From Clostridia bacterium (GTDB taxonomy: Bacteria > Bacillota > Clostridia > Peptostreptococcales > Acidaminobacteraceae): DNA of 64,000 nt. Position numbers and translations under genes: made by a program. Position 1 is the first letter of the stretch. Every line of letters starts with the position of its first letter. The stretch spans positions 1 through 64,000 of the forward strand of contig JAFGTX010000066.1 of NCBI GenBank assembly GCA_016938815.1, given 5' to 3'. The notes under the pieces are model-generated. The model was not told the DNA's origin and ran no database searches. It was given only the letters and a program-made list of their open reading frames with translations. Positions 8,801-13,374 of the stretch are shown here, piece by piece.

Positions 8801-9049
8801 ATGTTAGTTAAAATCTGTATTGGCAGCGCATGCCATCTAAAAGGCTCTTACGATATCATTAATTACTTAAAAGAAAAAATCGCTCAAGAACATCTTGAAG
8901 ATCAAATTATACTTAAAGCATCTTTTTGCTTAGGCAAGTGCAGTGAAGCCGTTTCTGTACAAATCGACGACCATCCAGTCACGTCTGTTTCGCCAGAAAC
9001 TGTAGAACACTTTTTTAACACTGTGATAAAGGAGTCACTGATACAATGA
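8801..9049 (+). CDS. Small thioredoxin-fold [2Fe-2S] protein (NuoE/HndA C-terminal-like)
   Basis: An 82-aa protein with the cysteine pattern of a thioredoxin-like [2Fe-2S] domain: CIGSAC near residue 7 and CLGKC near 46. Full-length NuoE/HndA subunits are about 160 aa; only the cluster domain is present here. It probably passes electrons to, or senses redox state for, the hydrogenase encoded next. GGAGGAAAG sits before the ATG. Its stop overlaps the start of the hydrogenase gene by four bases (ATGA), so the two are translationally coupled and probably made in equal amounts. First gene of a four-gene operon. The exact electron partner is inferred from context. Confidence 0.85.
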   Translation: MLVKICIGSACHLKGSYDIINYLKEKIAQEHLEDQIILKASFCLGKCSEAVSVQIDDHPVTSVSPETVEHFFNTVIKESLIQ

Positions 9050-10767
9050 AATTCATAAGCTTTGAAACAGAAAAATGTGATGATTGCTATAAATGTTTAC
9101 GTTCCTGCCCTACCAAAGCCATCATCATCAAAGAAAAAACACATGACATTGACGATAACCTATGCATTAAGTGCGGTATGTGTCAGGAAGTATGTCCTCA
9201 AAAAGCCCTCACCATCAGAAGTGAGCTTTCCAAGGTGAGAACTGCCATACGTTCCGGTAAAAAAATAGTAGCAAGCATTGCACCCTCATTTGTCGGTGCT
9301 TTCGACATCGAAAACCCCCTGTCGGTTGTAACCGCATTAAGACAGCTGGGGTTTAATCACGTAGAGGAAACCGGCATCGGTGCTGAACTGGTATCAACCG
9401 CTTTCAACGAAAGGCTGCAGGTATCTGAATTGCCGAACTTGATTACGTCTTGTTGTCCTTCTGCCAACTACCTTATTGAGCAATACTATCCGGAATTGAC
9501 GCCTTACATATTGCCTTATATTTCACCGATGGTCGCCCACGGAAAACTGCTCAGAAGAAAATACGGCACGGACGCCTATGTTGTCTTTATCGGTCCTTGC
9601 ATGGCCAAAAAAGCGGAAGCTGAGGAATTTCAACATTGTACAACTATTGATGCTGTTTTGACTTTTGAAGAATTGGATCAATGGTTGGCTGCAGAACAGA
9701 TTGATCTAAACGCACTGGAACCTACGCCATTTTGCGCTAAAGCGACCAAACGAGGCGGCTTATACCCTACCGGTTCCAGCTTATTAGAGGCCGATTTAAA
9801 AACGCGCTTCCAATCCAAATACAAGATTACCAAAGTCAATGGCATTGATAACTGCATCGAATTATTAGATGCCATGAAAAGCGGTCATCTTGATAATTAC
9901 TGTGTTGAAATGTGCATCTGCAATAACAGTTGCCTTTCTGGGCCGGGTATGCCAAGAAACATAGAGAATTCTATCGAACGAAAAATCAAACTTCATAATT
10001 ATGTGGACAATCTCCCTTATGAATCGGACCTTCAACCGATCTTGTTACAAGAGATCCCACTTCATAAAAGCTTCTTTCCGAAAGAAATCAAGAAGAAAAC
10101 CCCAACAAAAGAAGAGCTTTGGCATATACTCAATGAAATCGGTAAAACCGAAGAAGCAGACCTACTCAACTGTAGTGCGTGCGGCTACCGAACTTGTTAC
10201 GACAAAGCAGAAGCGGTTTATAATGGCATGAGTGATGTGCACATGTGCCTGCCATATTTGAGAGACAAAGCTGAAAGTTTAAGAACCACGATTTTCAACC
10301 ACAGCCCTAACCTCATCGTCATCGTGGATAAGGACTATATGATCAAAGAGGCCAATCCTGCATTTAGAAGTAACTTCATCCGAAAAGATGCCGATCTTCG
10401 TGATTTGCCAATTACACTCTTCATGCCTTCTGAAAAATTCGAAGACGTTTTTGCATCCGAAGAAAACATCTTACGTAAAAAATACCACTACAGCGATCTT
10501 CAAAAGACCTTTTTCGAAAACCTGATCTACCTTGAAGACGAGGAAGTGATTCTCTGCATCATGATGGATATCACCGCTGTAGAGTCCAAACAGCAAGAAC
10601 TGATGCGCGTGAAGGAGCAGACACTGTCTTCATGCCAAGAAGTCATCAACAAGCAGATGCGTGTTGCACAGGAAATAGCCAGCCTGCTTGGAGAAACGAC
10701 TGCGGAAACCAAAGTCAATCTCAACAGACTCAAAGATTTGGTTATTGGAGAGGAAGATAAGCTATGA
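9046..10767 (+). CDS. Sensory-type [FeFe] hydrogenase with ferredoxin, Fe-S and PAS domains
   Basis: Domain order: 2x[4Fe-4S] ferredoxin ([12 protein letters not shown] and [12 protein letters not shown], residues 10-60), H-cluster domain (about 75-330), a four-cysteine Fe-S domain (CSACGYRTC with a later Cys, about 380-415), then PAS (about 425-525) and a short helical tail. H-cluster motifs: L1 TSCCPS, L2 [11 protein letters not shown], L3 [10 protein letters not shown]; all four ligand cysteines are present. This architecture is that of group C (HydS-like) hydrogenases, thought to sense H2 rather than turn it over fast. The pairing with a SpoIIE-like phosphatase next door supports a signalling role. 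Start and stop overlap both neighbours by 4 bp. L3 deviates from the catalytic MACPGGC form. The hfs cluster of Thermoanaerobacterium is a possible relative. Confidence 0.9.
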   Translation: [573 protein letters not shown]

Positions 10768-11924: not shown

Positions 11925-11934
11925 GAGAGACATC

Positions 11935-13374
11935 ATGAGAAAATTTGAAAATTACGTACAATTGGTCAAGTACGAAGTATTGAGGGAAGTTTCAAAATCC
12001 GCACTTCGAGGCACACTGACCAAAGATCTACCTCGAATACCTAATATCATCGATCCGGGTCCAGAACCTAGAAGTCGATGTTGTATATATCACGAACGTG
12101 CCATTACTGCGGAACGTATTACTATGGCACTTGGTGGCGACCCTAGCAATAGCAATATCATCGAAGTGTTGGAAACCGCTTGTGACCAATGTCCTATCAA
12201 TCGATATAAAATCACGGAAGCCTGTCGAGGCTGTATCGCCCACCGCTGCATCGACAGCTGTCCAAAGGATGCCATCAGTATCGTCGGACAACGTGCCGTC
12301 ATCGATTACTCTAAGTGTATTGAGTGCGGTCGCTGTAAAGACGCTTGTCCCTACAACGCGATCAGCGACTTGATGCGCCCTTGTAAACGTGCCTGTCCAG
12401 TCAATGCGCTGACGATCGATCATAACAAAAAAGCGGTCATCGACAACGATAAATGCATTCAATGCGGCGCCTGCGTCTCTATGTGTCCCTTCGGTGCTAT
12501 CCAAGATAAATCCTATATCGTTGATACCATACAGCTGATGAAAAAAGAAGCAACCTACGCCATCATAGCACCGGCTTTTGCCAGTCAATTCAGCTATGCC
12601 AGCCTCGGTCAAGTCGTAGCAGGTATCAAGGCACTTGGCTTTAAGGATGTTATCGAAGTAGCTCTTGGCGCTGACCTCGTCGCCGAACATGAAGCTTCTG
12701 AATTTGTCGAAAGAATGGCTACGGACAACCTCATGACCAGTTCATGCTGTCCTGCATTCTTCCAATTCATAGAAAAGAATTACCCAACACTGAAAGAAGC
12801 ACGTTCGACCACGTTGTCTCCCATGTTTGCTACCGCCAAATTAATCAAATCCATTGACCCTGAAGCCCATATCGTCTTCATCGGTCCATGCATCGCCAAA
12901 AAGACAGAGAAACAACTCTACGACAAGGAAAACCTGATCCAATACGTTTTAACCTTCGAAGAATTAACCGCACTGCTGGATGCTGCGGAAATCGACCTTG
13001 AAAACTTATCGCCGGCACCGCTCAACAACGCATCCTACTACGGCCGGATTTTTGCGAGAAGCGGTGGTCTGACAGAGGGTTTGACCACACTCATCGAAAA
13101 GGAAGATGTGACATTCAATCCAATCGTCTGCGACGGTATCGATGCTTGCGATAAGGCACTTAGAATCGCTTCCGTCAATCGTCAAACCTTCAACTTCATC
13201 GAAGGCATGGCGTGTAAAGGCGGTTGTACCAAAGGGCCTGTTTCCCTTCACCACGCGCCAACGACAACCAAGCTTATTGATGCTTACGGCGAACTGGCAC
13301 TGGAGAAAAAGCCAGAGGACAGTCTACGTGTCTTTGAAAAGAAATCACTCTCATTGCATCGAGAGCACTTATAA
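11935..13374 (+). CDS. Monomeric [FeFe] hydrogenase, group B-like
   Basis: A 479-aa hydrogenase likely to make H2 from reduced ferredoxin. The N-terminal 115 residues contain extra cysteines (CCIYHER, CDQCPINR). Ferredoxin-type motifs follow: CRGCIAHRCIDSCP, CIECGRCKDACP, a third CKRACP and CIQCGACVSMCP, so three or more [4Fe-4S] clusters are likely. H-cluster motifs: L1 TSSCCPAFF, L2 FIGPCIAKKTE, L3 GMACKGGCTKGP. The L3 sequence and N-terminal layout match the group B family known from anaerobes. AGGAGAGAC precedes the ATG. Last gene of the operon, followed by a clean terminator. Placing a catalytic-type enzyme behind a sensory hydrogenase and phosphatase suggests the operon regulates its own H2 output. 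Confidence 0.92.
   Translation: MRKFENYVQLVKYEVLREVSKSALRGTLTKDLPRIPNIIDPGPEPRSRCCIYHERAITAERITMALGGDPSNSNIIEVLETACDQCPINRYKITEACRGCIAHRCIDSCPKDAISIVGQRAVIDYSKCIECGRCKDACPYNAISDLMRPCKRACPVNALTIDHNKKAVIDNDKCIQCGACVSMCPFGAIQDKSYIVDTIQLMKKEATYAIIAPAFASQFSYASLGQVVAGIKALGFKDVIEVALGADLVAEHEASEFVERMATDNLMTSSCCPAFFQFIEKNYPTLKEARSTTLSPMFATAKLIKSIDPEAHIVFIGPCIAKKTEKQLYDKENLIQYVLTFEELTALLDAAEIDLENLSPAPLNNASYYGRIFARSGGLTEGLTTLIEKEDVTFNPIVCDGIDACDKALRIASVNRQTFNFIEGMACKGGCTKGPVSLHHAPTTTKLIDAYGELALEKKPEDSLRVFEKKSLSLHREHL

Follow-up and report, generated by a model that had tools for sequence, protein, structure and literature searches.

An hfsABCD operon from a Clostridia bacterium combines sensor-type and catalytic [FeFe] hydrogenases with a predicted SpoIIE-type phosphatase

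RESULTS

Four genes of an hfsABCD operon

We analyzed a 64,000-nt stretch of the forward strand of contig JAFGTX010000066.1 (hereafter, the window) from a Clostridia bacterium of the Acidaminobacteraceae (assembly GCA_016938815.1). Between positions 8801 and 13374, the window contains four co-directional open reading frames on the plus strand, hfsA, hfsB, hfsC, and hfsD, in that order. The start of hfsB overlaps the stop of hfsA in an ATGA (9046-9049), a second ATGA joins hfsB to hfsC (10764-10767), and a 10-bp gap separates hfsC from hfsD. This check of the reading frames upheld the gene set, coordinates, lengths, and both overlaps reported in a first-pass annotation made from the sequence alone. 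Judged by gene content, gene order, and an upstream Rex-like operator, all of which agree with Thermoanaerobacterium, the locus is an hfsABCD operon of the kind already described in that genus. The annotation had held identity with a characterized cluster to be incompatible with its claims. In kind, that match is essentially there, and the locus is a new member, from a different organism, of a known type.

The first gene, hfsA (8801..9049, plus strand), encodes an 82-aa thioredoxin-like [2Fe-2S] protein that corresponds to the C-terminal half of the NuoE/HydC type fold. It matched PF01257 at 41.4 bits (cut-off, 24.8) over the C-terminal half of the Pfam family only, and its four-cysteine motif (Cx4C...Cx3C) was present in 70 of 71 relatives. 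Both results bear out the small [2Fe-2S] protein that had been proposed.

HfsB resembles sensory hydrogenases and HfsD catalytic ones

The second gene, hfsB (9046..10767, plus strand), encodes a 573-aa sensor-type [FeFe] hydrogenase. Its domains run from two [4Fe-4S] clusters through the H domain to a further [4Fe-4S] motif (Cx2Cx4Cx16C; residues 376-401), a PAS domain (about 415-511), and a C-terminal helix (about 530-565). Pfam models matched it at 197 bits for PF02906 and additionally for Fer4 and the FeS family PF04060, while its score against the group B model TIGR04105 (225.7 bits) fell below the cut-off of 450. The product of hfsD (11935..13374, plus strand; 479 aa) scored 565.7 bits against the same model and 211 bits against PF02906, which agrees with its first description as a group B-like hydrogenase, here of the ferredoxin-type catalytic kind.

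For a residue survey in CpI numbering, verified on an alignment of CpI, 76 HfsB and 36 HfsD proteins were aligned together with three enzymes of group A from the same genome. The cysteines of the H cluster were kept in every HfsB (76/76) and in all HfsD relatives. Among the HfsB proteins, E279 was absent throughout (76/76), E282 was gone in all but a few, and S319 was absent in 73 of 76; M353 had changed to Gly in 74/76, and M497 was replaced in 74/76. All five residues are replaced in the HfsB of the window. In contrast, the proton path E279/E282/C299/S319 is intact in the HfsD of the window, and its relatives retain E279 (36/36), E282 (34/36), C299 (36/36), and S319 (36/36). Slow, sensor-type enzymes are marked in the literature by loss of proton-path residues together with M353 and M497 (PMC8163306, PMC10407848, PMC10055695). 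The Cx2Cx4Cx16C motif, a type found in groups C and D, was present in all HfsB proteins (76/76). By its cysteines, clusters, PAS domain, and residue losses, HfsB fits a group C (M2f) sensory [FeFe] hydrogenase, except that it lacks the typical but non-defining replacement of C299 (mostly by Ala). The PAS-carrying, HydS-like hydrogenase of the first-pass annotation therefore stands on its sensor-type cluster, lost proton path, and retained H-cluster cysteines, with PAS matches that are sub-threshold.

That annotation had also singled out a variant L3 motif. The window protein does read M-CICNNSC at this position. However, the C-x3-C is intact, both of its cysteines occur in 76/76 relatives, and the spacer varies freely among them, so we regard this L3 as ordinary variation and ruled it out as a functional novelty. 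Separately, the hfsB gene of Thermoanaerobacter thermocopriae JCM 7501 (L081:3347-5087; draft genome) is split into three pieces by a stop or frameshift, which reflects either loss of function or sequencing error.

The C-terminal helix of HfsB is near-invariant among the 76 relatives, with conservation far above that of the preceding PAS domain. The papers that we consulted on these enzymes do not describe this helix. It is the best candidate for contact with the phosphatase, and would be the natural site for it because HfsC starts directly with its catalytic domain.

HfsC is predicted to join a phosphatase to a separate alpha/beta domain

The third gene, hfsC (10764-11924), encodes 386 aa, of which residues 1-220 (10764..11423, plus strand) make up a SpoIIE/PP2C phosphatase domain. 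PF07228 matched residues 31-215 only (62 bits; cut-off, 25), and the metal residues Asp23, Asp40, Asp155, and Asp210/211 were invariant in 55/55 relatives. For an AlphaFold2 model of the full-length protein (predicted local distance difference test [pLDDT], 90; predicted template modeling score [pTM], 0.86), the best PDB match was SpoIIE (5mqh; E = 2.4e-15). On its profile, metal aspartates, and modeled fold, HfsC is predicted to be an active SpoIIE-type PP2C phosphatase, as originally called. Non-functional metal residues, which would have spoken against that call, were ruled out by their invariance.

The remaining 166 residues (221-386; 11424..11921, plus strand) form a Rossmann-like alpha/beta domain with the motifs GPP, CGGTxxNIV, DLVTEG, and GxAINPAHQNP. 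Its mean column identity was 56%, versus 61% for the catalytic part. Modeled alone, as had been suggested for the C terminus of the phosphatase, the extension was predicted to be a compact, separate domain (pLDDT, 90). Among 55 members we found no Pfam family beyond scattered weak matches; PDB searches returned no sequence relatives and, with Foldseek, no fold match below E = 1e-3. These results are in keeping with the uncharacterized extension that had been placed after the phosphatase. The top Foldseek matches were the methylglyoxal synthases 1wo8 (E = 4e-3; template modeling [TM] scores, 0.39/0.49) and 1vmd, with motif echoes (GTTG / GGTT and PHxPD / PAHQNP), but hhalign in several modes did not support this homology (probability, about 1%). 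In the model, the invariant motifs sit at strand ends, a placement that would resemble ligand-binding Rossmann-like folds.

The extension was found in 95/300 genomes of the phylum. In 8/9 genomes of one genus, it occurs as a stand-alone protein of 152-176 aa (L124:8623-9102, L125:7945-8415, L126:7599-8075, L146:7875-8336, L147:7249-7719, L148:7895-8353, L149:7299-7772, and L150:7944-8414). In 8/8 cases, the gene comes immediately after the hydA-like gene that belongs to an NADH-type hydCBA operon, and neither hfsB nor a phosphatase gene adjoins it; the HydC, HydB, and HydA domains of these neighbors were verified by Pfam in one genome of the eight (L126). The stand-alone proteins retain GP(P/A), CG(G/S)(S/T), T(D/E)G, and GxAxN. 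This form is the strongest clue to function, suggesting that the extension belongs with the hydrogenase and not only with the phosphatase. We tentatively suggest that it could be an undescribed ligand-binding domain through which [FeFe] hydrogenase systems would be informed of a cofactor or phosphometabolite, although we hold this to be doubtful. Fused to the phosphatase, it would gate H2 signaling; standing alone behind hydCBA, it would act on the electron-bifurcating hydrogenase.

In several genomes, a TnpB/Cas12f-like gene (weak PF07282 match) begins at the end of hfsC or overlaps it (L068:7110-8603, L070:11151-12707, L114:11161-12681, and possibly L018:1-1385). It is a target-specific transposon or else a TnpB-like protein that has been domesticated.

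hfsB and hfsC are linked across genomes

Linkage was counted in the 80 best-matching loci. Since hfsB adjoins hfsC in every one (80/80), the arrangement is not due to chance; hfsA was recognized in 68. A group B hfsD directly follows hfsC in 35/80, trimeric HydABC-type genes are near in 23, and divergent B-C pairs (about 27-36% identity) lie directly beside hydCBA. This pattern argues that HfsABC is the regulatory core, with an exchangeable catalytic hydrogenase. Across 29 loci, distance matrices were more strongly correlated for B-C (0.94) than for B-D (0.81) or C-D (0.83). The ATGA overlaps had been taken to suggest stoichiometric complexes, for which they are insufficient on their own, although co-variation is indeed tighter between B and C than within the remaining pairs.

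A full-length or near-full-length HfsC is encoded in about 48/148 genomes of the class, and the nearest named relative that we compared was T. thermocopriae (L081; HfsC, 46%). In three loci (L050:5464-8049, L083:5430-8036, and L115:5425-8049), a gene for an adhE-like bifunctional aldehyde/alcohol dehydrogenase lies directly upstream of hfsA, an arrangement that the genetic connection of hfsB to adhE (PMC5707799) and the cluster of Ruminococcus albus (PMC6776011) would predict. Long open frames suggestive of HfsB-HfsC gene fusions (G260 and G418) proved to be merely open upstream frames.

Promoter, operator, and terminator

A promoter-like site (TTGATA-17-TATACT; 8732..8760, plus strand) precedes hfsA, with its -35 end inside a Rex-operator-like palindrome, TTGATAATTTTTTAACTA (8732-8749). 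The palindrome starts 69 bp before the hfsA ATG and has two mismatches to TTGTTAANNNNTTAACAA; the chance that the 164-bp intergenic stretch contains a site with two or fewer mismatches is about 0.004. Rex-like sites (three or fewer mismatches) were found upstream of 29/75 related operons compared with 38/584 control upstream regions (P = 7e-13). The hfsABCD operon of Thermoanaerobacterium saccharolyticum is itself a predicted member of the Rex regulon, with a Rex-like site, TTGTTAATAAATTAACTA, at -78 (PMC5886521). We predict that transcription of the hfs operon is under Rex (NADH/NAD+) control. Downstream of hfsD lies an intrinsic terminator (13403..13436, plus strand) with a 14-bp stem followed by a T run (-19.7 kcal/mol; z = -5.2). 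By their overlaps and by the predicted promoter and terminator that bracket them, hfsA to hfsD are one operon. A tRNA methyltransferase gene (PF02390) flanks the operon upstream and a PF03706 gene downstream, both on the opposite strand, and no Rfam elements were found at the locus.

Elsewhere in the window, a TauE/SafE-family gene (23755-24651, minus strand) is preceded, at a distance of 63 bp, by another good Rex-like operator (24714-24731; one mismatch). A gene at 38706-40508 encodes a fusion of an H-NOX (heme-NO-binding) domain with a chemotaxis receptor signaling domain, a candidate gas-sensing receptor.

Candidate signaling partners

When all hfs neighbors were clustered, the sole conserved companions were hydrogenase genes. 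The first-pass annotation had suggested a survey for linked STAS or anti-sigma genes, which returned none among the annotated neighbors; STAS domains were absent from 30 annotated near neighbors. The window's own genome does contain a group D-like sensory hydrogenase locus on another contig (L121; C384:18000-32066) with genes for DRTGG, a GHKL ATPase (HATPase_c_2 match), HydS, DRTGG, PHP, and HATPase proteins, and with a hydCBA-like operon about 4 kb away. In a second genome (G096; L203:4536-14171), a single operon contains hfsC together with genes for DRTGG, a GHKL ATPase, group D HydS, DRTGG, and PHP proteins and the hydCBA genes; hfsB is about 15 kb from hfsC. L203 was the only locus with a GHKL kinase gene within the hfsC operon; such a gene was nearby in L105, L078, L090, and L092.

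DISCUSSION

Interpreting hfsABCD as a sensor, a phosphatase, and a hydrogenase is not new, having been published for Thermoanaerobacterium and for R. albus HydS (PMC5707799, PMC11837493, PMC6776011). The present analysis adds residue statistics for the whole family, the invariant helix of HfsB, the finding that the catalytic partner is exchangeable, and the occurrence of the extension as a stand-alone protein. The operon of T. saccharolyticum (Tsac_1550 onward, GQ354412; Shaw 2009; PMC5707799, PMC11837493, PMC5886521) carries the four genes in identical order, a likeness of content and order rather than of aligned proteins. It shares with the window a PAS sensor hydrogenase, a serine phosphatase, and a ferredoxin-linked hydrogenase, and its Rex-like site at -78 (TTGTTAATAAATTAACTA) compares with one starting 69 bp upstream in the window (TTGATAATTTTTTAACTA). 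HfsA, described as "unalignable" in PMC11837493, is recognized in the window as a thioredoxin-like [2Fe-2S] protein. The H2-responsive HydS/HydA2 cluster of R. albus (PMC6776011; Zheng 2014) likewise combines an H-cluster sensory hydrogenase carrying PAS, a Ser/Thr phosphatase subunit, and an adjoining ferredoxin hydrogenase, but it comprises eight genes including adhE, which is not beside hfs in the window.

Among characterized sensor hydrogenases, TmHydS of Thermotoga maritima (group C, M2f; TM1420-TM1422) shares with HfsB the order Fer4, H domain, [4Fe-4S], and PAS, the change of M353 to Gly, and the replacement of M497. Residue 299 is Ala in TmHydS and Cys in the HfsB of the window, and the neighbor of TmHydS is the trimeric TM1424-1426 hydrogenase (PMC3561251), not a hydrogenase of group B. 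The group D (M2e) enzyme TamHydS from Thermoanaerobacter mathranii is also slow, putatively sensory, and equipped with the Cx2Cx4Cx16C cluster, and it is encoded near a bifurcating hydrogenase and a histidine-kinase-like ATPase. Unlike the window system, it has neither PAS nor phosphatase; a group D-like locus lies elsewhere in the window's genome. HfsC has the catalytic fold and metal residues of the PP2C phosphatases RsbP, RsbU, and SpoIIE. In RsbP, the order is PAS, helix, and PP2C. Unlike these proteins, HfsC lacks both a sensor and a linker at its N terminus, has a separate protein as its sensor, and carries at its C terminus a domain not known elsewhere.

The first-pass annotation had read the locus as sensory and catalytic hydrogenases wired through a phosphatase, and this remains the best-supported reading, with the proton path lost in HfsB and kept in HfsD and the metal residues of the phosphatase invariant. 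We therefore think it likely that hfsABCD is an H2- or redox-sensing unit acting via a phosphatase. HfsD would be a ferredoxin-dependent, H2-evolving (reversible) hydrogenase, and HfsB a slow hydrogenase used as a sensor, in which H2 or the reduced-ferredoxin/H2 redox poise would set the state of the H cluster. Electrons would pass to the C-terminal [4Fe-4S] cluster, which adjoins the PAS domain; the latter would move the end helix and alter its contact with the separate HfsC, a trans version of the RsbP arrangement. HfsA may be a [2Fe-2S] electron carrier or a subunit of this sensing unit. HfsAB would most likely hold HfsC in check at low H2 and release it at high H2; the released phosphatase would dephosphorylate a putative target protein, shifting metabolism from acetate and H2 to ethanol (AdhE) and use of HfsD. 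The extension would most likely bind a ligand, providing metabolic input or docking the phosphatase on the hydrogenase machinery. The anatomy of the operon, the residue patterns, conservation, linkage, and Rex-like sites come directly from our analysis, and the knock-out phenotypes from the work of others. We infer H2 as the signal, the B-C contact, the direction of control, the regulation of the phosphatase, its target, and the ligand role of the extension.

Two sets of published data, taken together, are consistent with HfsAB being an H2-released brake on HfsC. Deletion of hfsA or hfsB raised ethanol about 1.8-fold and adhE 2-3-fold, whereas deletion of hfsC or hfsD gave no such rise (PMC5707799). 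In R. albus, which has this sensor and phosphatase as well, adhE and the ferredoxin hydrogenase are expressed at high H2, and under the low H2 of co-culture the cluster containing adhE, sensory hydrogenase, and phosphatase was down 111-fold (PMC6776011).

Several observations weigh against this model. PAS models matched HfsB at E values of about 2e-3, under their cut-offs, and no conserved substrate, kinase, or STAS gene was linked to the hfs loci. The papers that we consulted contain no H2-binding or phosphatase assay for the HfsB-HfsC pair. C299, absent in the two characterized sensor hydrogenases (PMC10407848), is retained in the HfsB of the window and 43/76 relatives. That retention and the Rex-like operator would suit an HfsB that is a working, if slow, hydrogenase within a Rex-controlled operon whose two hydrogenases balance redox, with a phosphatase that has nothing to do with H2. 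We consider this very improbable given the systematic loss of the other proton-path residues, the PAS domain with its invariant helix, the strict linkage and co-variation of B and C, and a total hydrogenase activity that is raised, not lowered, in the hfsB deletion (PMC5707799). A further challenge comes from Thermoanaerobacterium thermosaccharolyticum, in which over-expression of hfsD alone in a full hfsABCD deletion restored the same high ethanol as deletion of hfsB (PMC11837493), so that the effect may stem from the dosage of hfsD and not from HfsC.

Accordingly, HfsAB could act directly on the amount or activity of HfsD, with the phosphatase a minor or local modulator of HfsD and no global phosphoprotein route. 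This is compatible with the authors' current view that hfsB mutations deregulate hfsD (PMC12288451) and with the 35/80 loci that have hfsD directly behind hfsC, and we rate it a possible, though less probable, explanation. Yet many hfsABC loci have no hfsD nearby, often having HydABC instead, so HfsD cannot be the universal target, and hfsB mutations arise in an hfsD deletion strain too (PMC12288451). Alternatively, HfsC might take part in partner switching, opposing an RsbW/SpoIIAB-like GHKL serine kinase on a small regulator (e.g., a DRTGG protein) encoded with a group D sensory hydrogenase. The L203 operon, in which hfsC accompanies these genes away from hfsB, fits such pairing, as do the kinase cluster on contig C384 of the window's genome and its position directly upstream of hfsABCD in L105. 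Across 148 genomes, however, the kinase co-occurred with hfsC in 28/48 genomes versus 43/100 others (P = 0.11), 20 hfsC genomes have no GHKL kinase, and a STAS gene was not found among neighbors. As a general rule, the kinase is thus unsupported as an obligate partner of HfsC, and we judge partner switching unlikely; the pairing is a lead.

How anaerobes sense H2 and choose among H2, acetate, and ethanol is relevant to biofuel strains, in which hfsB mutations recur. The sensor and the phosphatase matter genetically, and our analysis narrows the question to the end helix of HfsB and the end domain of HfsC, the latter also occurring as a separate protein with a bifurcating hydrogenase.

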